Shown one piece after another: positions 27,963-45,271 of a stretch of DNA of 64,000 nucleotides (the stretch's first letter is position 1; the number at the start of each line of letters is the position of its first letter). The notes below the pieces were generated by a model. The model saw only the letters and a program-made list of their open reading frames with translations. It made no database searches and had not been told where the DNA came from. The DNA is taken from assembly GCF_002952215.1 (NCBI RefSeq), contig NZ_CP022600.1, forward strand, positions 1,054,001 to 1,118,000. The letters are read 5' to 3'. Position numbers and translations under genes: made by a program. The stretch is from Porphyrobacter sp. HT-58-2 (GTDB lineage Bacteria; Pseudomonadota; Alphaproteobacteria; Sphingomonadales; Sphingomonadaceae).

Positions 27963-28889
27963 ATGGGCAAGGCATGGCAGATGGTTGCGGCGCTGGCCGC
28001 GGCATGGAGCGCGGGCGGCGCGCTGGCGCAGGATAATTCGGCACTGTTCGTCGAGGGCAGTCTCGAACTGGCGGCCACCGGCTACACCTTCACCGAAGGC
28101 CCGGCGTGGGACGGGGCGCGGATCATCTTCAGCGACATTCCGGGCAATGCGGTCCACGTGCTGAGCCCCGGGGAGGGCGCGGCGCAGGTGCTCTACGCGC
28201 CCAGCATGAACGCCAACGGCCATACCTTCGACTTGCAAGGCCGCCTCATCAACGCCGAGCACGGCAGCGGAGCGATCACCCGCTGGACGCCGGAAGGCGG
28301 ACGGCAGGTTGTCGTCGCAGCCTATGAGGGCAAGCGCCTCAACAGCCCGAACGATGTTGTGGTGCGTAGTGACGGGCTGATCCTGTTCACCGATCCGCCC
28401 TATGGCCTTGGCCAGCGCGAGAGCGAGGTGGGCTTCTCAGGCGTCTTCGCCTTCGACGAGGCTTCGAGCAAGGTGGTGCTGATCGACGACGCGCTCAGCC
28501 GCCCCAACGGCCTCGCGCTCTCGCCCGACGAGCAGGTGCTCTATGTCGGCGATACCGCGACACAGACCGTCTGGGCCTATGATCTGGCCGCCGACGGCAC
28601 GGCTTCGGGCAAACGGCTGGTGGTCGATGTGACCGATGACAGCACGCCGGGGCGGGTCGATGGGGTGCGGGTCGATACTGCGGGGCGCGTGTGGTTCACT
28701 TGCCCCGGCGGGATCTGCGTGGTCGATCCGGAGAACGGCGCGGTGGTGGCGCGGCTCGCCACGCCCAAACGCGCGACCAACCTTGCGTGGGGTGGGGCTG
28801 ACCTGTCCCAGCTTTACATCACTGCGCTGACCGACGTGTACCGGGTCAAGACGCGTGCGACGGGTGTGGGATCGTCGAGCCGCCAGTAA
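27963..28889 (+). CDS. exported SMP-30/gluconolactonase-like lactonase
   Basis: 308 residues with a signal peptide (WQMVAALAAAWSAGGALAQ) and the six-bladed SMP-30 propeller. Landmarks are FTEGPAWDG with the metal-site Glu, NSPNDVVV with the metal Asn, and LSRPNGLALSPDEQVLYVGD. Members hydrolyse sugar lactones such as gluconolactone, but related enzymes act on other lactones. Probably periplasmic. It is divergent from mmsA across 144 bp and has no obvious pathway partner. Start chosen at 27963 because it opens the signal peptide. Confidence 0.85.
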   Translation: MGKAWQMVAALAAAWSAGGALAQDNSALFVEGSLELAATGYTFTEGPAWDGARIIFSDIPGNAVHVLSPGEGAAQVLYAPSMNANGHTFDLQGRLINAEHGSGAITRWTPEGGRQVVVAAYEGKRLNSPNDVVVRSDGLILFTDPPYGLGQRESEVGFSGVFAFDEASSKVVLIDDALSRPNGLALSPDEQVLYVGDTATQTVWAYDLAADGTASGKRLVVDVTDDSTPGRVDGVRVDTAGRVWFTCPGGICVVDPENGAVVARLATPKRATNLAWGGADLSQLYITALTDVYRVKTRATGVGSSSRQ

Positions 28890-28892
28890 CTC

Positions 28893-28910
28893 CCCTCCCG
28901 CAAGGGAGGG
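28893..28910. terminator. bidirectional terminator hairpin
   Basis: CCCTCCC-GCAA-GGGAGGG, a 7-bp perfect stem capped by a stable GCAA tetraloop, lies between the converging lactonase and M24 peptidase genes. It is symmetrical enough to act on both strands. No strong T-run follows. Confidence 0.6.
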
Positions 28911-28915
28911 TATCA

Positions 28916-30268
28916 TCAATCCGATGCGATCAGCGTGATCTCCGTCTGCCGCCCGTCGATATAGCGCACGCTCTCGCCGTCGAAGAAGGCGTCCTCCTCG
29001 GTTCGGAAATCCACCTTCTGGCCGCCCCATTCGGGTACCTCGGCATAGGACGTCAGTTCGATTGACCACGCCGTGTTCGCCCGGATCGGCCCGCTCCCGC
29101 GAGGGTCAGCCTTCTGGTTGTCCCAGAAGCCGATGGCTGGTCCTGCGCCATGACCATGGTGGCCGATGGGGTGGGTGTAGATCGACGGATCGAGCCCTGC
29201 CGCGATGCTGTCCGCCCGTGCGATGGCGAGCGCTTCATTGCCGGATCGCCCGACCTTGAAGGCGCGGGTCAGGAAATCCTGCACCTTGTTCGAATTGGCC
29301 AGCCCCTGCCGCAGCCCCGCAGGCGCCTCTGTCTCGCCGGGCTTCAGCACATAGGCAAGGTGCTGGGTATCGGTGTTGAGGCGCAGATAGGTGATCCCGA
29401 AATCGGTCCACAGCAGGTCGCCCGGCTGGATCACCTCCTCGCCCTCCAGCATGCCCTTCACCCCCTGCCGTTGGATCGCCACGGAAGGGTGGAACCACGG
29501 CGTCAAGCCCAGCGCCATCAGCCGGTCGCGATACCACCATTGCACTTGGCTTGCCGTGGTGACGCCGGGGGTGATGACCTTCCTTGAGAACGCCTCGCCA
29601 ATCACCGCATGGGCGATGCGCACGACGGTGGGGTAGAGCTCCATCTCGGCAGGCGTGCGGGTTTCGAGCCAGCGGATCGCCAGCCCCTCGCCGCTCACCA
29701 CGCGCTCGTGCAGGGCGGGGGGCAGGGCGGACATGAACCTGTCGTACTGGCTCAGCGTCATGCCGTCGGCGAACTGGTAGAGGTCTGACGAATTGATCGC
29801 GATTTTCGCCGGGTTTCTGGCCGCGATGATGTCGGCCACCGCCTGCCACTGGTCAGGCTGTTCATCCGGGTTCCAGGCGGGCGCGAACAGCCCGCCTAGG
29901 CCGTAGCGGCTGACCGTCAGCCGCTCGATGGGCTTGCCCTCGCCGGGGTCATGGAAGATCAGGATCGTCCGCCGCCGCGCGTGCATGTTCTCGGCATCGA
30001 GCATGGTGGCGACCACCGGCTCTTCGAAATATTCGCGCGCCACCAGCAGCCACAGGTCGATCCCCTCCTCGCGCATGATCTGCGGAATGAGAGTGTCGAG
30101 CCGCTCGGCAAGGATGCGGTTTTCGAGCGCCGCGCGCTCGCGTGGGGCAAGGATCGCCGGAAGGGCGGGGGCGGCGACCTCGGTGTCGCTCAGGGGCAGG
30201 GGAGCATCCGCCAGCGCCGGGCTTGCCGCCAGCGCCGCAGCCAGAATGATGCAATGCCGTCCGATCAT
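28916..30268 (-). CDS. exported M24-family metallopeptidase (Xaa-Pro aminopeptidase-like)
   Basis: 450 residues with a signal peptide (MIGRHCIILAAALAASPALA). The C-terminal pita-bread domain shows candidate metal ligands: Asp in LLWTDFGITYLRLNTDTQH, His in HPIGHHGHGAG, and Glu residues in IELTSYAEVPEWGGQ. The N-terminal creatinase-like domain (about 45-250) precedes it. Members remove N-terminal residues before proline or act on related amides. Probably periplasmic. It lies 56 bases downstream of the citryl-CoA-lyase-like gene on the same strand and might be cotranscribed with it. Confidence 0.82.
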   Translation of the reverse strand: MIGRHCIILAAALAASPALADAPLPLSDTEVAAPALPAILAPRERAALENRILAERLDTLIPQIMREEGIDLWLLVAREYFEEPVVATMLDAENMHARRRTILIFHDPGEGKPIERLTVSRYGLGGLFAPAWNPDEQPDQWQAVADIIAARNPAKIAINSSDLYQFADGMTLSQYDRFMSALPPALHERVVSGEGLAIRWLETRTPAEMELYPTVVRIAHAVIGEAFSRKVITPGVTTASQVQWWYRDRLMALGLTPWFHPSVAIQRQGVKGMLEGEEVIQPGDLLWTDFGITYLRLNTDTQHLAYVLKPGETEAPAGLRQGLANSNKVQDFLTRAFKVGRSGNEALAIARADSIAAGLDPSIYTHPIGHHGHGAGPAIGFWDNQKADPRGSGPIRANTAWSIELTSYAEVPEWGGQKVDFRTEEDAFFDGESVRYIDGRQTEITLIASD

Positions 30269-30324: not shown

Positions 30325-31107
30325 CTACTCCGATCCGTCGTCGAACCCGATGCGCTCGGCCGCGGCGCCGCTCATGATGAAGCCGATCGGGCGCTCGGTT
30401 TCTTCCTGAAGATGCGCGATCAGGCTGGCGGTGCGGGCGAGGAGCGAGATGCCCTTCAGCGCCGCCAGCGGGAACCCGGCGTCGAGCATCACCGCAGGGA
30501 TCGCGCCGTTGACGTTGATCGGCAGGCTACGCCCGATGGCTTCGGGCAACACGGCTTCAATGGTGCGCAGCATGGCGATGTGGGGGCCTTCCATGCCGTG
30601 CTCCTTGGCGAGCGCCAGCAGGCGGTGGGCGCGGGGGTCGCCGCCGGAGTGCTGGGGATGGCCGAAGCCGGGGATTGCCTTCTTCTCGGCCCGCAAGGCC
30701 TTGATCGCGGCGATGGCGGTGGCGGCGGGATCAGCGCCCTCGCTGTCAGCGACCACCTGCGCGTAGAACCTGCCCGCCACTTCCGCGCTGCCCAGCACCA
30801 CGCTCCCGCAGCCCAGCAGTCCTGCCGCAACCGCGCCGTGGAAGGCTTCGGGCGCGGCGGCATAGGTCATGCGGGTAGCGACGACGCTCGGCACCAGCCC
30901 GTGTTCGGCGATCGCGCACAGCACTGCGTCGGCCAGCGCCTTTTGCGGGGGAGACGGCTTGGTTCCAGTTACCAGAAGCCAGAAATAGCTAGTAAAATCG
31001 ACATGGCCGATCACCTCGGAACACAGGTCGAGCCCTCGCACGGTGATGCTGGTCGCATCGGAAGTGCAGATCGAGGTGACGGCGTTGTCCTGCTTGCCGA
31101 TGCGCAT
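30325..31107 (-). CDS. citryl-CoA lyase / short citrate-synthase-family enzyme
   Basis: 260 residues, about 100-150 shorter than true citrate synthase, matching the citryl-CoA-lyase-like branch. Family active-site stretches are recognisable: EAFHGAVAAGLLG, GFGHPQHSGGDPRAHRL, and NVNGAIPAVMLDAGF. The chemistry would be cleavage or formation of a citryl-CoA-type thioester, giving acetyl-CoA plus an oxo-acid. The ATG at 31107 has an AAGGA site, and upstream in-frame codons run through the operator and are rejected. Divergent from a class III CoA-transferase that could make its CoA-ester substrate. The natural substrate, such as citramalyl-CoA or another citrate analogue, is unknown. Confidence 0.75.
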   Translation of the reverse strand: MRIGKQDNAVTSICTSDATSITVRGLDLCSEVIGHVDFTSYFWLLVTGTKPSPPQKALADAVLCAIAEHGLVPSVVATRMTYAAAPEAFHGAVAAGLLGCGSVVLGSAEVAGRFYAQVVADSEGADPAATAIAAIKALRAEKKAIPGFGHPQHSGGDPRAHRLLALAKEHGMEGPHIAMLRTIEAVLPEAIGRSLPINVNGAIPAVMLDAGFPLAALKGISLLARTASLIAHLQEETERPIGFIMSGAAAERIGFDDGSE

Positions 31108-31118
31108 GGAAAGTCCTT

Positions 31119-31150
31119 TTCGATATTCGAAGTTGATTTCGTTATGCGAA
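31119..31150. promoter_or_regulatory. tandem IclR-type operator, copy 1
   Basis: Two palindromes of form TTCG-N5-CGAA (31119-31131 and 31138-31150) are separated by six bases, GTTGAT, giving a 19-bp centre-to-centre spacing. They sit in the 91-bp gap between the citryl-CoA-lyase-like gene and the CoA-transferase-iclR pair. The same architecture recurs at 33307-33338. Published PcaR/PcaU-group IclR sites have similar TTCG-N5-CG cores, so the neighbouring IclR protein is the likely ligand. Confidence 0.75.
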
Positions 31151-31198
31151 GAATATAGTGTCTCATCTCCAACAAGGCAAGCAGATGGGATGTTCAGG

Positions 31199-32359
31199 AT
31201 GACCGCTCGGCCCCTAGCAGGCGTTACCGTGCTCGAAATGGGCACGTTCATCACCGGCCCCGCTGCCGGGATGCTGCTCGCCGACATGGGCGCGGATGTC
31301 ATCAAGGTGGAGCAACCCGGCACGGGCGATCCGTTCCGCAGCTTCAAGGGTGAACTCTACTCGCCCCACTTCCAGACCTACAACCGCAACAAGCGTTCCA
31401 TCACAATCGACCCCAAGAAGGAAAGCGATCTTTTGGTGCTCGATCGGCTGGTCGAGGATGCGGACGTATTCATCCAGAACTTCCGCCCCGGCGTCGCGGA
31501 CCGACTGAAGGTCGACGCGAAGCGCCTTCAGGGCATCAACCCGCGGCTGGTCTATGCCTCGATTTCTGGCTTCGGCAGCGAAGGCCCGGAACGCGATCGC
31601 CCCGCCTTCGACACCGTCGCACAGGCAGCATCCGGCTTCCTCCGCCTGCTGGTCAACCCCGAACACCCCCGCGTTGTCGGCCCTGCCATCGCCGATGCCA
31701 TGACGGGTTTCTACACTGCGCTGGGCATTCTTGCGGCGCTCAATGAACGCCACACCACGGGCAGGGGACGGGTGGTCGAAACCTCGATGTTCGAGGCCAT
31801 GTGCCACTTCAACCTCGACGATTTCACCCACCTGCTCTCCGCCGATCAGGTCATGGGGCCTTACAGCCGCCCGCACGTCTCGCAGAGCTATGTCTTCCAG
31901 TGTTCGGACGGTAAGTGGCTCGCGCTCCACATGTCCTCCCCGCCCAAGTTCTGGGAGAATCTCGCCACCGCGGTCGGCCAGTCCGACATGCTCAGCCTGC
32001 CCGCCTTTGAAAGCCGCGAGGCGCGGATTGCGCATTACGAGGATGTGGTCGCCTTCCTCGCCCCGATCTTCGCGCAGAAAACCCGCGCGGAATGGACCGA
32101 GACCCTGACCCGCCTCGAAGTGCCCAATTCGCCCGTCTATGACACGACCGAGGTGCTGGCGACCGAACAGGCGAGGGTGCTGGGCATCGAAGTCACCGAC
32201 CCGGACGGCCCCAAGGGAGAATTCCGCACCATCCGTTTCCCCCTGTCCTTCGATGGCGAACGGATGGACAGTGTTACCGCGCCGCCCCTATTGGGGGCAG
32301 ACGATGCGGCGATCCGCCGCTCCATCGAAAGGCCGGTGCATGGGATCCGCAGGGGCTGA
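31199..32359 (+). CDS. class III CoA-transferase (CaiB/BaiF family)
   Basis: 386 residues. The N-terminal GVTVLEMGTFITGPAAGMLLADMGADVIKVE and RNKRSITIDPK are diagnostic, and the catalytic Asp probably lies in AIADAMTGFYTALG. The enzyme moves CoA from a donor such as succinyl-CoA to an organic acid. The ATG at 31199 starts the conserved domain, and an in-frame ATG three codons earlier is possible. The gene overlaps iclR by 20 bases, so the pair is cotranscribed. Context with the divergent lyase suggests an activate-then-cleave sequence: acid to CoA ester to acetyl-CoA plus an oxo-acid. Confidence 0.88.
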   Translation: MTARPLAGVTVLEMGTFITGPAAGMLLADMGADVIKVEQPGTGDPFRSFKGELYSPHFQTYNRNKRSITIDPKKESDLLVLDRLVEDADVFIQNFRPGVADRLKVDAKRLQGINPRLVYASISGFGSEGPERDRPAFDTVAQAASGFLRLLVNPEHPRVVGPAIADAMTGFYTALGILAALNERHTTGRGRVVETSMFEAMCHFNLDDFTHLLSADQVMGPYSRPHVSQSYVFQCSDGKWLALHMSSPPKFWENLATAVGQSDMLSLPAFESREARIAHYEDVVAFLAPIFAQKTRAEWTETLTRLEVPNSPVYDTTEVLATEQARVLGIEVTDPDGPKGEFRTIRFPLSFDGERMDSVTAPPLLGADDAAIRRSIERPVHGIRRG

Positions 32360-33155
32360 AATCGCGAGCAAAGACCCGGAGTTCCTCTCGACGCTGGAGC
32401 GGGGCCTGCGTGTCCTGAAGGCGTTTGACGAGGATCACCCGGAAATGACCTTGTCAGAGGTCGCCGCCAAGACCGGGCTGCCCCCGGCTGTGGCGCGCCG
32501 CTGCCTGATCACGCTGGTGGAGCTGGGCTATGTCGGCCAGCACGAACGCAAGTTCCTGCTGCGCCCGGCGGTGCTGACGATCGGTTCGGCCTTCCTCGCC
32601 TCGATGCAGATCGAACAGGTGGTGCTGCCCCCCTTGCAGGCGCTGCGCGATCAGACCGGGGACAGTGCCAGCCTCGCCGTGCTTTCCGGCGCGGAGATTC
32701 TCTATGTCGCTCATGTCTCGACCGATCGGCGCTTCCGGGTGGCGGCGGGCGTCGGCACGCGGTTCCCGTTCCACGCGACGTCGCTGGGCAAGGCGCTGGC
32801 GGCGAATCTGCCCGAGGGCGAGCGTGCCGAATTGCTGGCACACGCTCCCTTCCAGCGGTTTACCGAGCGCACGGTCACCGATCTTGCGGCGATGACCGAG
32901 CGGCTCAATCTCATCGCCTCGCGCGGGTACGATTCGGCGCTGGACGAGCTGGATTACGGGATCGTTTCAGTGGCGGTGCCGATTTTCGGGCGCGGCGGAC
33001 GGGTGATCGCCAGCATCAACTGCTCCACTTCGACCACCCGTATTTCGCAGGACGAACTGGTGCGCACCCGGCTGCCTTTGCTGCGCAATGCGGCGGGCGA
33101 GATCGAGGCGTCACTCAAGCGCTGGCCCGCGCTCGAAGCCAGCTTGCAGCCCTGA
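32340..33155 (+). CDS. IclR-family transcriptional regulator, PcaR/PcaU-like
   Basis: 271 residues. The winged helix-turn-helix is at about residues 14-80 (FLSTLERGLRVLKAFDEDHPEMTLSEVAAKTGLPPAVARRCL in sense, broken by normal loops). It is followed by the IclR effector domain with GTRFPFHATSLGKALAANL and ELDYGIVSVAVPIFGRGGRV. Best resemblance is to regulators of protocatechuate/beta-ketoadipate and other aromatic-acid pathways. It starts inside the CoA-transferase gene (20-base overlap). Two identical tandem TTCG-N5-CGAA operators flank it, upstream of its own operon and upstream of the TonB receptor gene, so it probably controls both units. Confidence 0.9.
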   Translation: MGSAGAEIASKDPEFLSTLERGLRVLKAFDEDHPEMTLSEVAAKTGLPPAVARRCLITLVELGYVGQHERKFLLRPAVLTIGSAFLASMQIEQVVLPPLQALRDQTGDSASLAVLSGAEILYVAHVSTDRRFRVAAGVGTRFPFHATSLGKALAANLPEGERAELLAHAPFQRFTERTVTDLAAMTERLNLIASRGYDSALDELDYGIVSVAVPIFGRGGRVIASINCSTSTTRISQDELVRTRLPLLRNAAGEIEASLKRWPALEASLQP

Positions 33156-33306
33156 AATTGCCTGAAAATGGCCGCGCAAGGCCCGGCCTAAGGCCCCTCT
33201 GAGCCCGTTCTGGCGGGTGCAAGGCCCGATCTGGAGCGGGCAACGGCACCCCTGCGCCAGTGTGAAAATCCGGCCTGGCGTGGCTGCTTTGCCACATTTC
33301 AGACTT

Positions 33307-33338
33307 TTCGCATATCGAAGTTGACTTCGCATTGCGAA
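33307..33338 (+). promoter_or_regulatory. tandem IclR-type operator, copy 2
   Basis: TTCG-N5-CGAA at 33307-33319 and again at 33326-33338, separated by GTTGAC. The spacing equals copy 1 exactly, and even the spacer differs by one base only. It lies 72 bases upstream of the TonB-receptor ATG, inside the 254-bp gap after iclR. I see no further gene in that gap. Confidence 0.75.
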
Positions 33339-33409
33339 TTTCCTAACCCGCCAATCGGGAGGGATCGCCAAGAAAGCGACGCGTCTGCGCGCGCACAGGG
33401 GAGAGAGTT

Positions 33410-35641
33410 ATGAAGTTTTCGGGCATGAGCCGCACGGCCAAGGGGCAACTGGGCCGCAAGCTCGTCAGCAGCGCCGCAATCGCGGCAGCCACCATCGCCG
33501 CAGCACCGCTTGCCGCGCAGGAGGCTCCGGCCGAACCGGCCGCCGAAGATCAGGGCATTGTCGTTACCGGCCTGCGCCGCAGCGAGACCCTTCAGGATAC
33601 CCCGGCGGCGATCACCGCCTTCGATTCGCAGGCGATCAGCAATGCCGGGATCGAGCGTCCGGCGGACTTCATCGCGCTGACCCCCAACGTCAACCTCGTC
33701 GAGACGCAGAACGCGGGCAATGCCTTTGTCATCATTCGCGGCATCACCCAGAACCGCAACTCCGAACCCAGCGTCGCCGTGATCGTCGACGGCGTGCAGC
33801 AGGTGAACCCGGCGCAGTTCAACCAGGAACTGTTCGACATCGAACAGATCGAAGTGCTCAAAGGCCCGCAGGGCGGCCTTTACGGACGCAACGCCATTGG
33901 CGGCGCGATCATCATCACCAGCAAGGCCCCGACCGATGAATTCGCCGGCAACATCACCGCGGGCGTCGACAATGGCTTTGGTTACTACCTGCGCGGCGGG
34001 ATCAGCGGGCCGATTGCCGAGAACGTCAAGTTCCGCATCGCCGGTTCGTGGTATGACACCAACGGGTTCATCGACAACACCTTCCTCAATGAAAAGGCCG
34101 ATCCGGTCGAGGACTTCTCCCTGCGCGGCAATCTGCTGATCGAGGCGAGCGACCAGCTGACCTTCGACCTGCGCGCCAGCGTCAACCAGCTGCGCACACA
34201 GGGCCTGTATTACAACATCGTGGGTGACGTGAACGACATCGCCGATGTCGTCGTCAACAACCCCGGCCAGAACGACCGCGACATCTACAACGTCGCCCTG
34301 AAGGTCGAATATGCCGGCGACAATGCCGTGCTGACCTCGATCTCGTCGTATGACACGCTCAAGGAAGTGCTCACCGGCGACGCCTTCGACTTCAAGCCGA
34401 TCCCGGAAAGCTTCTTCTTCAACCTGTTCGAATTCCTGTTCGGTCCCGGCAACGGCTTCGACCTCAATCAGAGCCAGTATCTCAACGTCAAGGCGTTCAG
34501 TCAGGAAGTGCGCCTTGCCTCGCCCGAAGATGGCCGTCCGTTCAACTGGATGGTCGGCGGCTATCTGGTCGATACCACCCGCTTCATTTCGACCGGCAAC
34601 ATGATCGACACCGGCAACGGAGTGTTCCCGGTGTTCCGCAGCCCCTCGACCAATCCGCTCAACCCGCAGTTCAGCTTCCTGTCCGACGGGCAGGAGAACT
34701 TCGCCTGGGCGCTGTTTGCCAATGCCGGTTACGAAATTTCGCCGGAACTGCGCGTCGATGCGTCGCTGCGCTATGACCGTGACCGTCGCCGCCAGACCAC
34801 GCTGACCCCGCAGGGTTTCCTGCCTAACGTGCCGGGCGTGCCGCAGGCGCAGAGCGGCGAGGTGCGCACCGCGGTGTTCGACGATTGGCAGCCCAAGATC
34901 ACGCTGACCTATGAACCGAGCCCCGATGTCACGCTTTATGGTGGCTATTCGCGCGGCTTCCGTTCGGGCGGCTTCAACCAGACCGGCGTCGGTGCCGAGG
35001 CCGTCAATAATGGTATCGTCGGCGTGGGCGACATCTTCCGTGCGGAAACTGCCGATACCTTCGAAGTGGGTGCCAAGGCCCAGATTGGCCCGGTGCGTCT
35101 GGGGGCGGCGGCCTATACCACCAAGTCGGAGAACTCCTATTTCTTCGTCTTCCTCGCGCAGTCCTCGACCCAGAACCTCGGCAACATCCCCGAGACCCGG
35201 ATCAACGGCTTCGAACTGGAGGCGAGCGCGGAAATCCTGCCCGATTTCGACATCAATGCCGCGATCGGCGTGACCGACAGCGAGATCAAGGCCTTCCCGG
35301 ATGCATCCGTGATCGGCAATGAAGCCCCGCAGATCTCGCGCTATACCATGAACCTGGGCGCACAATATGCCGGGCCGATTTCGGACACGCTCGATGGCCT
35401 GCTGCGGATTGATTACCGCCGCATTGGCCGCACCTGGTGGGAGCCGTTCAACACCACCTCGCGCGATCCGGTTGATCTGGTCGATGCGCGGGCGGGCGTG
35501 ACCTTCGATAACGGGGTGACAATCACCGCCTTCGCGCAGAACCTGTTCAACGAGATCTACAATGCCGAATTCTCGCCGGGCGGCTTCGTGTTCCGCGCCC
35601 GTCCGCGGCGTTACGGGTTCGAAGTCGGGTTCAAGTTCTAA
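33410..35641 (+). CDS. TonB-dependent receptor of the IclR-linked module
   Basis: 743 residues, full length for the shorter receptors. A signal peptide ends near residue 36 (APLAAQ), followed by a TonB-box-like GIVVTGLRR. The plug carries ETQNAGNAFVIIRGITQNRNSEPSVAVIVDGV and EVLKGPQGGLYGRNAIGGAI. The barrel ends in GFEVGFKF with a terminal Phe. It imports a ligand across the outer membrane using TonB energy. Absence of an adjacent iron or B12 gene and its catabolic neighbours suggest an organic substrate, as is common in sphingomonads. It is first in a tightly packed five-gene unit controlled by operator copy 2. Confidence 0.93.
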   Translation: MKFSGMSRTAKGQLGRKLVSSAAIAAATIAAAPLAAQEAPAEPAAEDQGIVVTGLRRSETLQDTPAAITAFDSQAISNAGIERPADFIALTPNVNLVETQNAGNAFVIIRGITQNRNSEPSVAVIVDGVQQVNPAQFNQELFDIEQIEVLKGPQGGLYGRNAIGGAIIITSKAPTDEFAGNITAGVDNGFGYYLRGGISGPIAENVKFRIAGSWYDTNGFIDNTFLNEKADPVEDFSLRGNLLIEASDQLTFDLRASVNQLRTQGLYYNIVGDVNDIADVVVNNPGQNDRDIYNVALKVEYAGDNAVLTSISSYDTLKEVLTGDAFDFKPIPESFFFNLFEFLFGPGNGFDLNQSQYLNVKAFSQEVRLASPEDGRPFNWMVGGYLVDTTRFISTGNMIDTGNGVFPVFRSPSTNPLNPQFSFLSDGQENFAWALFANAGYEISPELRVDASLRYDRDRRRQTTLTPQGFLPNVPGVPQAQSGEVRTAVFDDWQPKITLTYEPSPDVTLYGGYSRGFRSGGFNQTGVGAEAVNNGIVGVGDIFRAETADTFEVGAKAQIGPVRLGAAAYTTKSENSYFFVFLAQSSTQNLGNIPETRINGFELEASAEILPDFDINAAIGVTDSEIKAFPDASVIGNEAPQISRYTMNLGAQYAGPISDTLDGLLRIDYRRIGRTWWEPFNTTSRDPVDLVDARAGVTFDNGVTITAFAQNLFNEIYNAEFSPGGFVFRARPRRYGFEVGFKF

Positions 35642-35656
35642 CGAAAGGCTCAGGCG

Positions 35657-36259
35657 ATGACCAAAGTGCTGGTGCTCTACTATTCGAGCTATGGCCATAT
35701 CGAGGCGATGGCTGCTGCGGTTGCCGAAGGCGCTGCCAGCGTCCCCGGCACCGAGGTCGTCGTCAAGCGCGTTCCCGAACTGGTGCCTGAAGAGGTCGCC
35801 AAGGGTGCGGGGATCAAGCTCGATCAGGCGGCCCCCCTTGCCGACCCGAACGAGCTTGCCGATTATGACGCGATCATCTTCGGCACCCCCACCCGCTTCG
35901 GCAACATGGCAGCGCAGATGCGCAACTTCCTCGACCAGACCGGCGGGCTTTGGTTCGCCAAGGCGCTGGTCGGCAAGGTGGGGAGCGTGTTCGTTTCCAC
36001 CGCCAGCCAGCACGGCGGGCAGGAGACGACCATCACCTCGTTCCACACCACCTTGCTGCATCATGGCATGGTGATCGTCGGCCTGCCCTACACCTTCGAG
36101 GGCAATAGCGAGATGGGCGAGATCAGCGGCGGCACCCCCTATGGCGCCTCGACGCTGGCGGGCAATGACGGTAGCCGCATGCCGAGCGACAACGAACTCG
36201 CCGGCGCGCGTTTCCAAGGGGCGCACGTCGCGAAGATCGCTGCCAAGCTGGCTGCCTGA
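35657..36259 (+). CDS. wrbA: NAD(P)H:quinone oxidoreductase, WrbA family
   Basis: 200 residues, flavodoxin fold. The FMN phosphate loop is [11 protein letters not shown] at the N-terminus. Other FMN-site stretches are [25 protein letters not shown] (broken across two loops) and [10 protein letters not shown]. It reduces quinones by two electrons, avoiding semiquinone radicals. It sits 15 bases after the TonB receptor gene and before a VOC protein, which fits a role on a quinone or hydroquinone intermediate of the pathway. A general oxidative-stress role is the alternative. Confidence 0.92.
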
Positions 36260-36288
36260 CAATCCAAGGGACTGACGGAGAGAGCACG

Positions 36289-36834
36289 ATGACGAAGATT
36301 CTGGCCAACCGCCTCCACCACACCGCCTATGTGACCAAGGACCTTGAGGCCACCCGCGCCTTCTACGAGGACGTGCTCGGCTTCCCGCTGATGGCGACCT
36401 ATTGCGAGAAGGACGAGCTGTTCGGCAAGGAGCGCACCTATTGCCACGTGTTCTTCGAACTGGCCGATGGCAGCGCGCTCGCCTTCTTCCAGTTTGCCGA
36501 CCCTGAAGATCAGGCCGAATTCGGCCCCGACATTCCCTCCAGCCCCTTCATCCACATTGCGCTGCACGTGGACAAGGACGGGCAGGACGAGCTCGCCCGC
36601 CGCATCGCCGCGGCCGGGATCACCGAGCCGCAGACCTATGTGCTGGAGCATGGCTACTGCAAATCGCTTTATGTGACGGATCCCAACGGGATGATCCTCG
36701 AATTCACCCATGATGATCCGCGCGCCGAGCCGCTGGACGCCGAGCGCCGCGCCAGCGCGCACGCCGAACTTAAGCGCTGGCTGGCCGGGGATCATCACAA
36801 CAACAACCCCTTCCGCGCCGAAGAAGCGGCGTGA
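36289..36834 (+). CDS. VOC-superfamily (glyoxalase/dioxygenase-fold) protein
   Basis: 181 residues with two beta-alpha-beta-beta-beta modules. Possible metal ligands are His in LHHTAYVTKDLEATRAFY, His in PFIHIALHVDKD and Glu in GMILEFTHDD. The superfamily includes ring-cleaving extradiol dioxygenases, glyoxalase I, epimerases and dehalogenases, and the sequence alone does not choose. A long C-terminal helix (AERRASAHAELKRW) is added. It lies between wrbA and an alpha/beta hydrolase, an order that resembles aromatic ring cleavage, but that is inference. Confidence 0.8.
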   Translation: MTKILANRLHHTAYVTKDLEATRAFYEDVLGFPLMATYCEKDELFGKERTYCHVFFELADGSALAFFQFADPEDQAEFGPDIPSSPFIHIALHVDKDGQDELARRIAAAGITEPQTYVLEHGYCKSLYVTDPNGMILEFTHDDPRAEPLDAERRASAHAELKRWLAGDHHNNNPFRAEEAA

Positions 36835-37685
36835 GGCACGGGGGGACGCGCCTGCACATGCTTGCCGCGCGCGTCCCTTCTCCGGTCGATCTGTCCTATG
36901 GCGAGGTCGTCGTTGCGGACGGCACGCTACCCATCGCCATGGCGGGCGCCATAGATTCTGGGGGCGCGCCGCTGATCCTGCTCCATGGCTGGAGCCTCGA
37001 TCACCGCATGTGGGCGCCCCAGCTTGAGGGGCTGGCGGAGGACTTTTTCTGCGTTGCGCCCGACCGGCGCGGCTGTGGCCAGGCCACCGCCCCCGCTGAT
37101 TTGGCGCGCGAGGCCGAGGACGTGATCGCCATCGCCGATTTCCTCGGTTTCGAGCGGTTCGCGCTGGTCGGCCTGTCGCGCGGGGCGACGGTCGCGCTCG
37201 ATGTGGCGCGGCGTTACGGCGCGCGGCTGACCGGGCTGGTGGTATCCGGCGCACCGCTCCCGGCGCTGGTCCCGCGCGAGGAAGTGATCGATCTTGAACA
37301 TTTCCGTGCGCTGGCCGAGGCGGGCGATCTGGAGCGCCTGCGCGCGGAATGGTCGCGTCATCCGCTGATGCAGACCCGTTCCCCCGCCGCCCGCGGGTTG
37401 ATGTTCGACATCCTTGCCGATTACGATGCGCGCGATCTGATCACGCCGGGTGAGGCTCCGGGCCTCCCGCGTGAGGCCCTGGCGATGCTGGCGGTGCCGG
37501 TGCTGGCGATGACGGGCGCGCATGACACGCCCTGGCGGCGCGATTGCGCGCGGGCGCTCGCGGCAGTCGCCCCGCGCGCGCGTCATCTTGAAATCGCCGA
37601 TGCGGGCCACCTCGCCAATGCCGACAACCCGGCCGCGTTCAACGCTGCCATCACGCAATTTCTTCAACCAAGGGCCAACGCATGA
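36831..37685 (+). CDS. alpha/beta hydrolase
   Basis: 284 residues from a GTG that overlaps the previous stop (GTGA). An ATG nine codons later is an alternative. The oxyanion-hole motif is LLHGWSLDHRMW. The nucleophile elbow is GLSRGATVA with Ser, and the catalytic His is in ADAGHLANADNP. The family covers C-C bond hydrolases, esterases and lactonases. It is cotranscribed with the VOC protein and the MetE-like gene (four-base overlap with the latter). Confidence 0.85.
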   Translation: MRHGGTRLHMLAARVPSPVDLSYGEVVVADGTLPIAMAGAIDSGGAPLILLHGWSLDHRMWAPQLEGLAEDFFCVAPDRRGCGQATAPADLAREAEDVIAIADFLGFERFALVGLSRGATVALDVARRYGARLTGLVVSGAPLPALVPREEVIDLEHFRALAEAGDLERLRAEWSRHPLMQTRSPAARGLMFDILADYDARDLITPGEAPGLPREALAMLAVPVLAMTGAHDTPWRRDCARALAAVAPRARHLEIADAGHLANADNPAAFNAAITQFLQPRANA

Positions 37686-38803
37686 CCACCCGCTTTGCCA
37701 CCACCCATGTCGGCAGCCTGCCGCGCCCTGAGGCCCTGCTCGACCTTGTGTTCAAGCGCGAAGGCGGTGAGGCGGTGTTGGAGGCCGATTTCGCCGCGGC
37801 GGTGGAAGAGGCCACGGCCTATGTCATCCGTCGCCAGATCGAGGCGGGCATCTCCATCGTCAACGACGGTGAGCAGTCCAAGCCCAGCTACGCCACTTAT
37901 ATCAAGCACCGCCTGTCGGGCTTCGGGGGCGAGGCGGGGCAGTATGAATTTGCCGACCTCGAAGCCTTCCCGGGCGCCAAGGCGCAGGTGTTCGGCAACA
38001 AGGGCCGCGCCAAGCGTTCTGCCCCCGCCTGCACCGCACCGATCACCGTGATCGACATGGACGCCCCGCGTATCGACGCAGAACGCCTCGTCCGGCTGGC
38101 GAATGGCCACGCCACCTTCATGTCGGCAGCGTCCCCCGGCGTGACCGCGCTGTTCTTCCCCAACCAGTATTACGCCAGTGACGAGGAATATGTCTTCGCC
38201 CTCGCCGAAGGGCTGCGCCACGAATACGAAACCATCGCGGCCGCCGGGATCACCTTGCAGGTCGACTGCCCCGATCTCGCGATGGGCCGCCATGTGCAGT
38301 TTACCCACCTCTCCACTGAGGAGTTCCGCAAGCGCATCGGCATGAACATCGCCGCGCTGAACCATGCGCTGCAGAACATTCCGGCAGAGCAGCTGCGAAT
38401 GCACCTGTGCTGGGGCAATTATCCCGGCCCGCACCACTGTGACGTGGCGCTTGATGAAATCGCGGACATCGTCTGGAGCGCCAAACCCCAGACCGTGCTG
38501 CTGGAAGGCGCGAACCCGCGCCACGCGCATGAATTCGCTTTCTTCGAGCGAAACCCCTTGCCCGACGACAAGATCCTGTGCCCCGGCATGGTCGAGCCGC
38601 AGTCGCCCTATATCGAGCACCCCGAGCTGATCGCCCAGCGCATCGGCCGCTATGCCGATCTGCTGGGAGCCGAGCGCGTGATGGCAGGCGTCGATTGCGG
38701 CTTTTCGGTCCACGCGGGCAGCAATGCGCTCGATCCCGAAATCGTCTGGGCCAAGCTCGCCGCGCTCGCCGAAGGAGCCGAGATCGCGGGCAAGCGCTAC
38801 TGA
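37682..38803 (+). CDS. MetE C-terminal-like (COG0620) methyl/alkyl-transferase family protein
   Basis: 373 residues resembling the catalytic half of cobalamin-independent methionine synthase and epoxyalkane:CoM transferase. It has TTHVGSLPRPEALLD at the start, SIVNDGEQSKPSYATY, HLCWGNYPGPHH and AGVDCGFSVHAG, the last with a possible zinc-ligand cysteine. Zinc-thiolate chemistry on a thiol substrate is typical of the family. It is too short and too divergent to be MetE, and the genome already has MetH. Placement at the end of a catabolic unit suggests methyl transfer from the substrate, or thiol conjugation. Function unknown. Confidence 0.75.
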   Translation: MTTRFATTHVGSLPRPEALLDLVFKREGGEAVLEADFAAAVEEATAYVIRRQIEAGISIVNDGEQSKPSYATYIKHRLSGFGGEAGQYEFADLEAFPGAKAQVFGNKGRAKRSAPACTAPITVIDMDAPRIDAERLVRLANGHATFMSAASPGVTALFFPNQYYASDEEYVFALAEGLRHEYETIAAAGITLQVDCPDLAMGRHVQFTHLSTEEFRKRIGMNIAALNHALQNIPAEQLRMHLCWGNYPGPHHCDVALDEIADIVWSAKPQTVLLEGANPRHAHEFAFFERNPLPDDKILCPGMVEPQSPYIEHPELIAQRIGRYADLLGAERVMAGVDCGFSVHAGSNALDPEIVWAKLAALAEGAEIAGKRY

Positions 38804-38863: not shown

Positions 38864-38937
38864 GCGGGTGTAGCTCAATGGTAGAGCAGAAGCTTCCCAA
38901 GCTTACGACGAGGGTTCGATTCCCTTCACCCGCTCCA
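38864..38937 (+). tRNA. tRNA-Gly (CCC anticodon)
   Basis: A 74-base cloverleaf with encoded CCA. The acceptor stem GCGGGTG pairs with CACCCGC, the D-arm is GCTC-AATGGTA-GAGC, the anticodon loop is TTCCCAA, and the T-arm carries GGTTCGATTCC. The anticodon stem has one mismatch at its outermost pair (G-A). It stands between the MetE-like gene and the converging fadD3. Confidence 0.95.
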
Positions 38938-38977: not shown

Positions 38978-40513
38978 TCAATCGCGCGCCAGATCGATCT
39001 TGGATACCTTGCCAGCGGCATTGCGCGGCAGATCATCGACGAAGGCGATGTGGCGCGGCACCTTGTAGTTGGCCATGTTCTCTCGCGCCCAGCCGAGCAA
39101 CTCGCCCGCCTCGGCTTGCGCGCCGGGGCGCAGGACGACGAAGGCCTTGCCGACCTCGCCCATGCGTTCGTCCCGCACGCCGATCACCGCCGCCATGCCG
39201 ATCGCGGGATGCGCCGCGAGCAGCTTTTCGACCTCGGCAGGATAGACGTTGAACCCGCCCGAGATGAACATGTCCTTCTTGCGGTCGGTGATGCGCACAT
39301 AGCCGTTCGCGTCCATCGTCCCGACATCGCCGGTGTTGAGCCAGCCGTCGGCGTCGATTGCCTCGGCGGTGGCGGCAGGATCGTCGAGATAGCCCTGCAT
39401 CACCCCGATCCCGCGCACCCAGATTTCGCCGGTCTCCCCGCGCGGCAGTTCCCGCCCGTCCTCGTCCGCGATGATCACTTCGTTGCCCGGGATCGCCGCG
39501 CCGCAGGTGCCCGCGATCAGCTCCACCGGATCGCCGGGGCGGCACGAGGTGATGTTGACGCATTCGGTCATGCCATAGGCGGTAATGATGTCGCGCATGC
39601 CGAGCTCGGTGCGGATGCGCTCGACCAGTACCGGGGGCACTGTCGCCGCCCCGGTGGTGCCGCCCCTCAGCGAGGAGGTGTCGAACGGCGCGCGCTCCCG
39701 CTCGGCCAGCAGCATCTGGAAGATCGTCGGCGGGCCGGGGAGGAAGGCGATGCGTTCCTGCGCAATCAGGCGCGCAGCCTCGGCGGTATCGAACTGCGGC
39801 ATCGGCACCATCACCGCGCCCGCGATCAGGCAGGCGACCCAACCGACCTTCATCCCGAAGCTGTGAAAGAACGGATTGGCGATGAGATAACGCTCGCCTT
39901 TCGCAAGACCAGTATTGCCGATCCACACCCCGACCTGCGGGATGATCCGTCCATGGGTCATCAGCACGCCCTTGGGCTGGCCGGTGGTGCCGCTGGTGAA
40001 CATGATGTCGGACAGGTCATCGGCGGTGAGGCCCGCAAGGCTGGCGTCGATGCGCGCGTCGCCTGCGCCCTTGCCGGTGGCGAGGAAGGCGTCCCAGTCG
40101 CGGTCCATCAGGATCGTCTCGGCCAGATCGGGCAGCGCCTCGTCGGCCAGCAGCGCCGGATAGTCGATGCCGAGGAAGTCGGTCACCGCGAACAACATCC
40201 GCGCATGAGTGCGGCGCAGGATATCACCCGCCTCCCGCCCTTTGAGGCGGGTGTTGAGCGGCACGATCGCTGCCCCGCAGGCCTGCGCGGCGACGGCGGC
40301 GATCACCCATTCGCGGCGGTTGGGCGCCCAGATCGCGATCCGGTCGCCGCGGGTCACGCCGCGTTCAAGCAGCGCTGAGGCTGTGCGGCGGCATTCGTCC
40401 CATAGCTCGGCAAAGGTAAAGCGCGTGTTCCCCTCGATCAGCGCGAGTTCATTGCCCCAGCGCCGCGCGGCAGCCGCGGCGGCGTGCGGGATCGTGGCGG
40501 GCAAGGCGCTCAT
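38978..40513 (-). CDS. fadD3: acyl-CoA synthetase, FadD3-like (HIP-CoA ligase)
   Basis: 511 residues of the ANL superfamily. The ATP loop is MFTSGTTGQPKG near residue 172, followed by AYGMTEC, WLNTGDVG, the hinge DRKKDMFISGG and the catalytic Lys502 in NAAGKVSK. In steroid degraders FadD3 activates the bicyclic propanoate HIP left after A/B-ring cleavage. The assignment rests on membership of a cluster containing ipdF, echA20, ipdAB, ipdC and fadA6. It is the last gene of the 17-gene leftward unit and overlaps the isomerase gene by four bases. Confidence 0.8.
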   Translation of the reverse strand: MSALPATIPHAAAAAARRWGNELALIEGNTRFTFAELWDECRRTASALLERGVTRGDRIAIWAPNRREWVIAAVAAQACGAAIVPLNTRLKGREAGDILRRTHARMLFAVTDFLGIDYPALLADEALPDLAETILMDRDWDAFLATGKGAGDARIDASLAGLTADDLSDIMFTSGTTGQPKGVLMTHGRIIPQVGVWIGNTGLAKGERYLIANPFFHSFGMKVGWVACLIAGAVMVPMPQFDTAEAARLIAQERIAFLPGPPTIFQMLLAERERAPFDTSSLRGGTTGAATVPPVLVERIRTELGMRDIITAYGMTECVNITSCRPGDPVELIAGTCGAAIPGNEVIIADEDGRELPRGETGEIWVRGIGVMQGYLDDPAATAEAIDADGWLNTGDVGTMDANGYVRITDRKKDMFISGGFNVYPAEVEKLLAAHPAIGMAAVIGVRDERMGEVGKAFVVLRPGAQAEAGELLGWARENMANYKVPRHIAFVDDLPRNAAGKVSKIDLARD

Positions 40514-40884
40514 GCCGCCCCCATGTTGGCAGGGCCGAAATAGGCCTTCATTCCTGCGACCTTGCCTTCGGCATCAAAGGCGAAGACATCGATCACGTCG
40601 ATCCGGGTATCGGCGCCGTCCCAATGCAGATCGACATGGAAGGCAAAGGCGGCATGACCGGCGGCGCAGCGCACAGGCCCGTCGAGTGTCAGGCGCGCGC
40701 CCGCGGCGATCCCGACCGCGAAGAATTCGCGCAGAGCCGCCTGGCCGACGCGGGGCGGGGTGCCGACCGGGTCCTCGACCATCGCGTCCTCGGCGAACAC
40801 CGCGCAGACTCCGTCGAGATCGCCGCGATTATAGCTGGCTACATAGGCCTCTACGGCCGCCACCATCCGGTCAGTGTCCAGCAT
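40510..40884 (-). CDS. ksi: steroid delta5-3-ketosteroid isomerase
   Basis: 124 residues, the length of Comamonas testosteroni KSI (125). The catalytic set aligns at the same numbers: Tyr14 in EAYVASYN, Asp38 in MVEDPVG, and Asp99 in DVIDVF. The surrounding YNRGDLDGVCAVFAEDA and MKAYFGPANM are also close. The enzyme moves the double bond of 3-oxo-delta5-steroids into conjugation at delta4, an early step for sterols and pregnenolone-type compounds. Its presence in the middle of the ring-degradation operon is strong support for steroids as the substrate class. It overlaps fadD3 by four bases. Confidence 0.92.
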   Translation of the reverse strand: MLDTDRMVAAVEAYVASYNRGDLDGVCAVFAEDAMVEDPVGTPPRVGQAALREFFAVGIAAGARLTLDGPVRCAAGHAAFAFHVDLHWDGADTRIDVIDVFAFDAEGKVAGMKAYFGPANMGAA

Positions 40885-40886
40885 TC

Positions 40887-41348
40887 TCAGGCCTCCGGGT
40901 AATAGCGGCTGATGGTGTCGACCACGCAGGCGGGCTTGTCCGCGCCCTCTATCTCGACCGTGACCCGCACCACCGATTGCACCGCGCCCTTCACTTCCTC
41001 GACGCCGACGATCTCGCCCCGACCGCGGATGCGTGCGCCCACGCGCACCGGATTGAGGAAGCGCAGCCGGTCCGCGCCGACATTCACCGCATGGGTGAAG
41101 CCGCGCACTTCAATGAGTTGCGGCAGGAAGTGGTTGACGAGGCTCATGGTCAGATAGCCATGCGCGATGGTGCCGCCGAAGGGGCCGGTCTTGGCGCGTT
41201 CGACATCGACGTGGATCCACTGGCGATCCTCGGTCACTTCGGCAAAGCCGTCGACCCGCGCCTGATCGATGGCGAGCCATTCGGTCGGGCCAAGCTGTGT
41301 CCCTTCGGCACCGATGAGATTGCGCGGGCTTTCAAACAGTGTGGGCAT
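40887..41348 (-). CDS. MaoC-like enoyl-CoA hydratase
   Basis: 153 residues, single hot-dog fold. The hydratase motif is recognisable in FAEVTEDRQWIHVD with Asp and His, and in GTIAHGYLTMSLVNHF. R-specific hydratases of this family add water to enoyl-CoA esters. The ATG at 41348 starts the conserved MPTLFES sequence and lies two bases after the ipdF stop. It probably hydrates an enoyl intermediate during HIP side-chain or ring oxidation. Confidence 0.82.
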   Translation of the reverse strand: MPTLFESPRNLIGAEGTQLGPTEWLAIDQARVDGFAEVTEDRQWIHVDVERAKTGPFGGTIAHGYLTMSLVNHFLPQLIEVRGFTHAVNVGADRLRFLNPVRVGARIRGRGEIVGVEEVKGAVQSVVRVTVEIEGADKPACVVDTISRYYPEA

Positions 41349-41350
41349 CT

Positions 41351-42133
41351 TCAGGCCCTCTGGCTCGACACGGACAGCACCTCGCCGGTCATGTAGCTGG
41401 CGAGGTCGGAGGCGAGGAAGATCATCGCATTGGCGACTTCCCACACCTCGGCCGGGCGGCCGAAAGCCTCGCGCGCGGCGAGATCGGCGAGCAGTTCGTC
41501 GCTCGTCACTTTCGCCAGAAACGCGTGCATCGCGATCGACGGCGCGACGGCATTGATCCGCACGCTATGTTCGGCGGCTTCGAGCGCGGAGCAACGGGTG
41601 AAGGCCATCACTCCGGCCTTGGCGGCGGCATAATGCGCCTGTCCCTTCTGCGCGCGCCAGCCGAGCACAGAGGCATTGTTCACGATTGCGCCGGTCTGGC
41701 GGGCCTGCATCGGAGGGAGGAAAGCGCGGGTCATGCGCATCACGCTGGTGAGCGTCACGTCGAGCACGCGGTGCCATTGTTCGTCGGTCATTTCCGTGAC
41801 CGACACCTCGCCGCCGAGGCCCGCATTGTTGATCAGCACATCGACATGGCCGAGCCCCGCCAGCGCCGCATCGCGCAAAGCATCGACATCCTCCTGCCGG
41901 GTGACGTCGCACAGGCAGGTGAGCGGCCGCTCGCACCCGACTTCGGCCGCGATCCGGTCGGCCGCTTCGCCCAGACGGCGCTCGTGGAAGTCCGAGACCA
42001 GCACCCGCGCGCCTTCCTCTGCGGCGCGCTTGGCGACGGCAAAGCCAATGCCCGTTCCGGCGGCGGCGGTCACCACCACCGTCTTGCCCTTGAGAAGATC
42101 ACGCGGCGGCGGATAGGCGGGTGTCAGGCTCAT
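41351..42133 (-). CDS. ipdF: short-chain dehydrogenase, IpdF-like (HIP-CoA pathway)
   Basis: 260 residues, classical SDR. The cofactor motif appears as TAAAGTGIGFAVAKR, an unusual TAAAGTGIG that I recall from Rv3559c (IpdF). The active site Ser is in NNASVLGWRAQ and Tyr-x3-Lys in HYAAAKAGV. The C-terminal INAVAPSIAMH and GEVLSVSSQ also match. IpdF interconverts a hydroxyl and ketone on the HIP-CoA ring system. It overlaps the next acyl-CoA dehydrogenase gene by four bases, the same ipdF-fadE30 adjacency seen in mycobacteria. Confidence 0.82.
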   Translation of the reverse strand: MSLTPAYPPPRDLLKGKTVVVTAAAGTGIGFAVAKRAAEEGARVLVSDFHERRLGEAADRIAAEVGCERPLTCLCDVTRQEDVDALRDAALAGLGHVDVLINNAGLGGEVSVTEMTDEQWHRVLDVTLTSVMRMTRAFLPPMQARQTGAIVNNASVLGWRAQKGQAHYAAAKAGVMAFTRCSALEAAEHSVRINAVAPSIAMHAFLAKVTSDELLADLAAREAFGRPAEVWEVANAMIFLASDLASYMTGEVLSVSSQRA

Positions 42134-44363: not shown

Positions 44364-44366
44364 GGC

Positions 44367-45269
44367 TCAGCTACCCCACACTTTGCGCGGCGGGGTACGC
44401 GCGGCGAGCAGCCGCTCCACCGCTGCGCCCACTTCCTCCGGCTGCCAGCGCGCGCTCTTGTCCACGACGGGGCCTTCGCGCCAGCCGTCCTCGATCATGA
44501 TCTTGCCGCCTTCCAGTTCGAACACGCAGCCGGTGACATCGCGGCTCTCCGCGCTGCCGAGCCACACCACGGCAGGCGCGATATTGGCCGGGTCCATCAC
44601 GTCGAAGTCCGCGCCTTGCGTCGCCATCTTGTCGGCAAAGGCCTGCTCGGTCATGCGCGTGCGTGCCGAAGGGGCGAGGGCATTGGCGGTGATCCCGTAG
44701 CGGCCCAGTTCCGCCGCCTGTACCAGCGTCAGCGATGCGATGCCGCCCTTGGCGGTCGAATAGGCGGCCTGCGCAATCGAGCCCTGAAGCCCTGCGCCGC
44801 TGGTGGTGTTGATGATCCGCGCGCCTGGATCGCGCCCGTCCTTCTGCTTGGCGCGCCAGTAGTTCACGGCATGGCGACTGATGCAGAAATGCCCGCGCAG
44901 GTGGACGTGCATGGTCGCATCCCATTCCTCGATCGTGGCCGACACAAACATCCGGTCGCGCACGATCCCGGCGTTGTTGACCACCACGTGCAGGTCACCA
45001 AAGGCGGCGATCGCAGCTTCGACGATCCGGCCGGCAGCGTCCCAGTCGGTCACGTCCTCGTAATTGGCGATCGCCTTGCCGCTGGCAGCGATGATTTCGG
45101 CCACCACTTCGTCGGCGGCGCTAGTGTCGCGCCCCTCGCCGCCCAATGAGGTGCCGATGTCGTTGACGACAACATTGGCACCCTCGGCGGCAAACGCGAG
45201 CGCATAGGCCCGCCCCAGTCCGCGCGCTGCGCCGGTGATGATGACGGTTCTTCCGTCGCAGATACCCAT
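44367..45269 (-). CDS. short-chain dehydrogenase, hydroxyacyl-CoA dehydrogenase type
   Basis: 300 residues. The cofactor loop is ITGAARGLGRAYALAFAAEGA and NDIGTSLGGEG is the extended loop of MFE2/HSD17B4-type dehydrogenases. The active site Ser lies in NTTSGAGLQGS and the Tyr in AAYSTAKGGIA. It resembles SDRs found beside ipdAB in actinobacteria and probably oxidises a hydroxyacyl-CoA to ketoacyl-CoA before thiolysis by FadA6. I chose the ATG at 45269, with an AAGG site 8 bases upstream, over a GTG two codons earlier that would overlap the thiolase stop. Confidence 0.8.
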   Translation of the reverse strand: MGICDGRTVIITGAARGLGRAYALAFAAEGANVVVNDIGTSLGGEGRDTSAADEVVAEIIAASGKAIANYEDVTDWDAAGRIVEAAIAAFGDLHVVVNNAGIVRDRMFVSATIEEWDATMHVHLRGHFCISRHAVNYWRAKQKDGRDPGARIINTTSGAGLQGSIAQAAYSTAKGGIASLTLVQAAELGRYGITANALAPSARTRMTEQAFADKMATQGADFDVMDPANIAPAVVWLGSAESRDVTGCVFELEGGKIMIEDGWREGPVVDKSARWQPEEVGAAVERLLAARTPPRKVWGS

Positions 45270-45271
45270 TG

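Follow-up and report, generated by a model that had tools for sequence, protein, structure and literature searches.

The question raised by positions 30325 to 38803 of the DNA studied here, a 64,000-nucleotide stretch of the Porphyrobacter sp. HT-58-2 genome (contig NZ_CP022600.1, positions 1,054,001 to 1,118,000; hereafter the window), is which compound its gene cluster takes up and degrades, and by what chemistry. The source genome (G000) is 3.28 Mb in one contig. The cluster comprises two units: a divergent one, in which a gene for a citryl-CoA-lyase-like protein (LYASE) on the minus strand faces genes for a class III CoA-transferase (COAT) and an IclR-family regulator on the plus strand, and a plus-strand operon encoding a TonB-dependent receptor, the quinone oxidoreductase WrbA, a VOC-fold protein (VOC), an alpha/beta hydrolase (HYD), and a MetE-like protein (METE). 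An initial annotation had listed these genes as an undescribed catabolic module, and domain and family scores place every gene it named where it was said to be and with the identity given; the IclR regulator, absent from its title, lies within the span as well. We lean, by a modest margin over doubt, toward the view that the cluster is a single IclR regulon for uptake and breakdown of a hydroquinone-type aromatic compound, most likely a methoxylated, lignin-derived one (methoxyhydroquinone, 2,6-dimethoxyhydroquinone, or their quinones), via the steps outlined below.

Comparisons across genomes support the eight genes as one co-conserved module. METE, at full length and at least 63% identity, is present in 19 of 149 genomes of the same family, with the next group at 49%; VOC (at least 329 bits) is found in exactly these 19 genomes, and LYASE (at least 453 bits) in the same 19, plus G008 (421 bits). 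VOC proteins other than that of the module score no higher than 149 bits in the order-level sample. Because VOC is present in only 4 of the 11 listed genomes of the window's genus (G000, G535, G544, and G585), the module is patchily held there. Locus counts were made on L051 to L130 alone, the best 80 of 579 relatives and thus a sample favoring close relatives; some of L031 to L050 are from the same genomes. METE is called at 55% or more in 78 of these 80 loci, and 50 of the 78 have at least 19 kb of sequence, of which 44 contain VOC, 43 COAT, 42 LYASE, and 40 all three, with TonB (30), IclR (28), the hydrolase (26), WrbA (25), and a second MetE-like gene, METE2 (20), in smaller numbers. The minimal gene sets are LYASE-COAT-VOC-METE, and gene order is shuffled between neighborhoods while the company is kept. 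In loci of different composition, some genes escaped the codon-bias gene caller; L210, L212, L214, L127, and L129 were re-called, and LYASE loci were re-read by open frames. Co-conservation had been set beforehand as one of two tests that could refute the hypothesis, which survived it, and chance clustering is rejected by the locus counts together with the 149-genome profile. Two incomplete copies were also seen: G091 has only METE fragments, at two places, and was left out of the count as a decayed copy, and in L078 (positions 9727 to 10993) fragments of LYASE and METE lie directly against each other, as would follow from loss or misassembly of the module's central part in this metagenome-assembled genome (MAG).

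The two units share a 32-bp double palindrome, TTCG-N5-CGAA-N6-TTCG-N5-CGAA, which is exact in both promoter regions and gives just two matches in the window when up to two mismatches are allowed (0.02 expected). In intergenic pieces drawn from 33 sources (the window and 32 loci), the half-site pair is present in 31 of 31 LYASE-COAT and 31 of 31 IclR-TonB regions with at most one mismatch per half, and the half-sites are spaced by 19 bp in 62 cases and 20 bp in three. Among full loci, the exact operator is present in 27 of the 28 that have IclR and in 3 of the 22 that do not; the 58 background loci (1066 kb) contain none. The operator also appears in two Gammaproteobacteria MAGs (L112 and L129) and in L210, which is of another class by inference, as are all class labels of L210 to L252. 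Where METE stands as a separate unit, the operator precedes it (L041, two mismatches; L100, one mismatch), and in L100 this unit adjoins a weak MTHFR match. Common regulation of the two operons is well supported by these sequence comparisons, and the IclR protein is the probable binder of the double palindrome. The second refuting test set beforehand was that the operons answer to different signals; at the sequence level, the shared operator points instead to a single signal. Two plasmids carry exact operator copies. On the Niveispirillum cyanobacteriorum plasmid (L267), a METE-less module lies beside LigAB genes 73 to 77% identical to those of L145; Aminobacter sp. MSH1 pUSP2 (L270), typed as conjugative, has METE2 (67%), LYASE, a CoA-transferase, and LigAB, with IS5 and IS110 transposases near.

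The role of VOC as a ring-cleaving dioxygenase is well supported by its nearness to a known enzyme in sequence and in fold, although in one fold comparison an uncharacterised VOC protein (2rk0) ties with that enzyme, and the activity itself is a probable one. Among solved chains, the one-domain homogentisate 1,2-dioxygenase 9u42 is first both by sequence search (7e-18, versus 2e-6 for the next) and by Foldseek (1.4e-11 versus 5e-8), and H11, H89, and E138 are invariant in 13 sequences, a 2-His-1-Glu pattern common to many VOC proteins. These results bear out the ring cleavage that the initial annotation had proposed as possible, and the quinone step that it had assigned to WrbA agrees with scores above both equivalog cut-offs for type IV quinone oxidoreductases. 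In other lineages, COAT-LYASE or METE homologues are often beside other ring cleavers, namely hydroxyquinol-dioxygenase-like, PcpA-like, or LigAB enzymes: the intradiol enzyme of L211 is closest to hydroxyquinol 1,2-dioxygenase 1tmx (261 bits), the L215 enzyme to PcpA 4huz (248 bits), PcpA-like genes are near METE in L119 (246 bits) and L125 (380 bits; also with a maleylacetate-reductase-like gene), and LigAB genes are found with the COAT-LYASE pair on three plasmids and in L214. For the L211 lyase, identity to Variovorax plasmid proteins is 85%. Hydroxyquinol- and hydroquinone-type dioxygenases yield beta-keto acids of the maleylacetate type.

LYASE has the citrate-synthase C-terminal fold, the length (260 to 270 aa), and the subfamily score (NF004868, 309 bits against a cut-off of 193) of a citryl-CoA lyase, and its closest PDB entry is citryl-CoA lyase 6hxp (118 bits). 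Among the matches listed, the GxGH-motif His (H150) is invariant in 120 of 120 near homologues, and the NVDG-motif Asp is Asn in the window and in the same 120; of the 51 lyases called across L051 to L130, 50 have Asn here as well, and that of L112 has Ser. Because the citrate-synthase Asp is replaced, LYASE is no ordinary citryl-CoA lyase, and we rejected filing it as such. Its reaction is more probably retro-Claisen cleavage of a beta-keto CoA ester, releasing acetyl-CoA and an acid. Such a reaction would reuse the site naturally, since the hydrated ester resembles citryl-CoA at the carbon that is cut, and the second product would be a C4 diacid. In 46 LYASE loci outside L051 to L130, BLAST against seven reference dioxygenases, which would miss other ring cleavers, found a dioxygenase gene beside the lyase in 3 of 3 loci with Asn at the Asp position, 15 of 18 with Ser, 3 of 12 with Thr, 0 of 1 with Ala, and 0 of 12 with Asp. 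Two simple rules fail: an Asp-less lyase does not always adjoin a dioxygenase (21 of 34 only), and Asn does not always go with VOC, as L112 has VOC and Ser. COAT presumably retains its catalytic Asp, as in formyl-CoA transferase. No match to a maleylacetate-reductase-like gene was found in 16 of the 24 genomes searched, the window's genome among these 16.

In METE, residues H241, C243, E275, and C339, which we take to be the His, Cys, Glu, and Cys zinc ligands of MetE, are invariant in 14 sequences, and the same residues are present in METE2 (343 aa; NF006589 265 bits, below the cut-off of 392). METE is a single domain of 373 aa, and its best NCBIfam methionine-synthase score is 86.8 bits against a cut-off of 406; with such scores, and with DesA- and PcpA-like genes as company, a plain methionine synthase is rejected. 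A sister clade at 43 to 49% identity has a DesA/LigM-like gene in 7 of 16 loci, one of which scores as DesA (843 bits, above 800) and is accompanied by FolD, MTHFR, and PurU. No NF047885 match to a LigM/DesA-type O-demethylase is present in G000, where the sole GCV_T match is GcvT (window 20298 to 21026). HYD residues S107, D223, and H251 are invariant in 10 sequences. A rule that HYD and METE2 exclude each other does not hold: 16 loci have HYD only, eight METE2 only, seven both, and nine neither.

From these properties a pathway can be proposed. The TonB receptor would import the (methoxy)hydroquinone, and WrbA would hold it in the reduced state. VOC would open the ring beside the phenol hydroxyl to give a maleylacetate-type beta-keto acid, as a methyl ester if the cut is next to the methoxy group, and HYD, the zinc enzyme METE, or both would strip the methyl group, either by hydrolysis to methanol or by transfer to homocysteine or folate. 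COAT would then form the CoA thioester of the beta-keto acid, and LYASE would cut it to acetyl-CoA and a C4 diacid. With 2,6-dimethoxyhydroquinone, HYD might act on the ester and METE on the remaining enol ether, with oxaloacetate and acetyl-CoA as end products. The substrate, the order of steps, the donor and acceptor of METE, and the reaction of LYASE are all predictions from gene content. A methoxylated hydroquinone, as the initial annotation suggested, is supported as the most plausible substrate class; we put a methoxylated substrate at about an even chance and the dimethoxy compound at about one chance in four.

Several observations weigh against this proposal. Four modules are without METE (L210, and, in the fetched stretch, L262, L263, and L267), and L210 is otherwise complete, with LYASE, COAT, IclR, TonB, WrbA, VOC, HYD, and a LeuCD pair. 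No dioxygenase gene was found by the BLAST comparison beside 13 of 34 Asp-less lyases, and the LeuCD genes near LYASE also pass leucine-pathway cut-offs and could be ordinary leucine genes. The METE-less modules are what would be expected if the substrate were a hydroquinone with alkyl groups or none, and METE or METE2 a methionine synthase or methyl recycler carried for C1 balance. We regard this as unlikely, since METE and VOC are in identical sets of genomes, the operator precedes METE where METE forms a separate unit, and METE falls far under the methionine-synthase cut-offs.

The CoA substrate could also be a citrate- or citramalate-like tertiary alcohol, split by COAT and LYASE in a retro-aldol reaction and derived, for example, from the extradiol product of gallate or protocatechuate. 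The subfamily score of LYASE and the LigAB genes beside some COAT-LYASE pairs are consistent with this, but the fold's Asp is missing from the near homologues and kept only in more distant lyases (12 of 46 loci), none with a ring-cleavage gene recognised by the references; moreover, no citryl-CoA synthetase was seen in the window's cluster, and the module's own ring cleaver is VOC, not LigAB. This explanation thus seems improbable, and the initial annotation, right in outline, was probably wrong in proposing a citrate or citramalate analogue at this step, given the missing Asp of the lyase and the hydroxyquinol- or hydroquinone-type dioxygenases that often neighbor the COAT-LYASE pair in relatives. 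It is very improbable that VOC is instead a glyoxalase-like isomerase or thiol transferase in a cluster that serves to detoxify quinones or other electrophiles and not to supply carbon metabolism. Glyoxalase I and fosfomycin thiol transferases have the VOC fold too, and among the matches listed they are ~1.4 to 2.5 Z below 9u42 (the uncharacterised VOC protein 2rk0 ties with it), and WrbA with a thiolate transferase would suit quinone defense. However, 9u42 is clearly first by sequence and by Foldseek, other ring-cleaving dioxygenases take the place of VOC in relatives, and detoxification does not need a CoA-transferase and an acyl-CoA lyase.

The methoxyhydroquinone regulon may be one version of something broader. 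Gene identity, co-conservation, the shared operator, the zinc ligands, the loss of the lyase Asp, and the occurrence of ring-cleavage genes near many COAT-LYASE homologues and some of METE were all computed directly. We tentatively suggest, as a possibility that we favor less than its absence, that bacteria have a so far undescribed lower pathway for the ring-cleavage products of hydroquinone- and hydroxyquinol-type compounds, in which beta-keto CoA esters, formed by a CoA-transferase or a ligase, would be cut to acetyl-CoA and a C4 diacid by a citrate-synthase-fold enzyme that lacks the Asp. The ring cleaver could be exchanged (one-domain VOC, PcpA-like, intradiol, or LigAB), and so could the enzyme that completes the route. 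Maleate-type products would be handled by a hydratase of the LeuCD type, and methoxylated products would lose their methyl group to a zinc enzyme of the MetE fold, which would make it an O-demethylase of a new kind, working on the opened ring. The LeuC-LeuD family includes maleate and citraconate hydratases, and LeuCD genes occur in same-strand runs in L210 (LYASE-WrbA-LeuC-LeuD, no METE) and L251 (dioxygenase-LYASE-FAD hydroxylase-COAT-x-LeuC-LeuD), and on C. necator N-1 pBB2 at a distance of a few genes from LYASE; because ordinary leucine-pathway cut-offs are also passed, this is a lead and not proof. The LigAB-linked variants may act on 3-O-methylgallate-type substrates, and leave room for a citrate-like CoA substrate there.

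Fungal homogentisate dioxygenases have another fold than VOC. The closest parallel in chemistry is nonetheless fungal, the vanillate/methoxyhydroquinone pathway of Aspergillus niger (VhyA, MhdA, a reductase, and OmeA), which, in the available part of its description, likewise uses 1,2-dioxygenase opening to a methyl ester followed by ester removal (PMC8336404). There, MhdA, a 55-kDa homologue of fungal homogentisate dioxygenases, opens methoxyhydroquinone to 4-hydroxy-6-methoxy-6-oxohexa-2,4-dienoic acid, a maleylacetate-type methyl ester, and deletion of omeA leads to accumulation of 4-oxo-monomethyl adipate, from which OmeA is inferred to be an esterase (PMC8336404). By analogy, VOC and HYD could carry out these two reactions in the module. 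The two differ in that the carbon passes through a reductase to 3-oxoadipate in the part of the fungal pathway described, in place of a CoA-transferase and a citrate-synthase-fold lyase, and that part describes no MetE-like protein (PMC8336404), whereas the module has METE.

Hydroquinone-type cleavage is shared with the PcpA/LinE 1,2-dioxygenase pathways, and in other lineages homologues of METE or LYASE have PcpA-like genes nearby, but the PcpA-like proteins are 317 to 361 aa in the examined loci, whereas VOC has 181 aa, and the PcpA/LinE pathways use maleylacetate reductase, which had no match in the window's genome. LYASE is like citryl-CoA lyase (Ccl) and the ATP-citrate lyase module in fold, length, and conserved His, and unlike them in its Asn and its aromatic catabolic context; no citryl-CoA synthetase was seen in the cluster. 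The C1 handling of methoxy groups recalls the tetrahydrofolate-dependent O-demethylation of sphingomonads, and some members of the METE sister clade are encoded in clusters of this kind; LigM and DesA, however, are GcvT-fold enzymes acting before ring cleavage and were not matched in the window's genome. METE shares the catalytic-domain fold and four zinc ligands of the cobalamin-independent methionine synthase MetE, but has one domain only, scores far below the family cut-offs, and belongs to an aromatic catabolic regulon.

Lignin oxidation is expected to yield methoxyhydroquinones and methoxyquinones. In the open-license literature we found little on their bacterial breakdown and no description of this gene cluster, and syringyl routes in Aspergilli are called unknown in the available part of an A. 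niger review. If the proposal is true, it would provide a genetic handle on methoxyhydroquinone breakdown in Erythrobacteraceae and Sphingomonadaceae, an example of a citrate-synthase-fold enzyme recruited for retro-Claisen chemistry, and a function for some members of a large MetE-like family that currently carries the methionine synthase annotation. The firm gains are the dioxygenase assignment and the shared operator, and the METE and LYASE chemistry is what is novel and testable, with the conserved operator as a simple handle for testing the whole regulon.

Coordinates of the module and its boundary are given in Table 1. The two large overlapping LYASE and COAT open reading frames (ORFs) are over-extended, since the starts are at 31107 and 31199: the LYASE frame reaches 31347, with homologues starting at 31107, and COAT most likely starts at the ATG at 31199, judged from homologues. 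HYD has a GTG start at 36831 overlapping the VOC stop, where the gene caller favored 36858. The IclR score that misses the TIGR02431 cut-off came from an over-long ORF.

Table 1. Features of the module and its right-hand boundary in the window
Feature	Position	Strand	Support
LYASE, citrate-synthase-fold "citryl-CoA lyase"-like, 260 aa, Asn200 at citrate-synthase Asp position	30325..31107	-	NF004868 309 bits (cut-off 193)
Operator 1, TTCG-N5-CGAA-N6-TTCG-N5-CGAA, divergent LYASE/COAT promoter	31119..31150		Exact match
COAT, class III (CaiB/Frc family) CoA-transferase	31199..32359	+	PF02515 350 bits, above cut-off
IclR-family regulator, PcaR/PcaU/PobR type	32340..33155	+	PF01614, PF09339; TIGR02431 256 bits, below cut-off 285
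Operator 2, same double palindrome, upstream of TonB operon	33307..33338		Exact match
TonB-dependent outer-membrane receptor	33410..35641	+	PF00593, PF07715
WrbA NAD(P)H:quinone oxidoreductase	35657..36259	+	NF002999 350 bits (141), TIGR01755 331 bits (132.5), both above cut-offs
VOC, single-domain ring-cleaving dioxygenase candidate, 181 aa	36289..36834	+	PF00903 51.7 bits; closest PDB 9u42
HYD, alpha/beta hydrolase, candidate methyl esterase	36831..37685	+	PF00561 73.7 bits
METE, one-domain MetE-like zinc-thiolate methyltransferase candidate, 373 aa	37682..38803	+	PF01717 42.9 bits (gathering 21)
tRNA-Gly(CCC), right-hand boundary, outside pathway	38864..38937	+	

Upstream in the window, positions 15086 to 24733 contain one-carbon genes (a B12-dependent methionine synthase, a beta-lactamase-fold protein, GcvT, and a GcvP-type gene), with a glycine riboswitch at 19978 to 20077. 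A 144-aa ORF at 26315 to 26749 matches only positions 343 to 460 of a 461-position aldehyde dehydrogenase profile and is possibly a truncated gene; a piece 95% identical to it adjoins the module in L261. SMP-30-like and M24 peptidase genes (27963 to 30268) recur beside LYASE in several Erythrobacter/Porphyrobacter-type loci, with none seen in other lineages, and in L033, L036, L089, and similar Erythrobacteraceae-type loci a block containing a GMC oxidoreductase and a P450 repeatedly flanks the core module on one side. Past the tRNA, a long minus-strand run (38978 to 54654) opens with AMP-ligase, SnoaL, SDR, and acyl-CoA dehydrogenase genes and is apparently a separate catabolic cluster.

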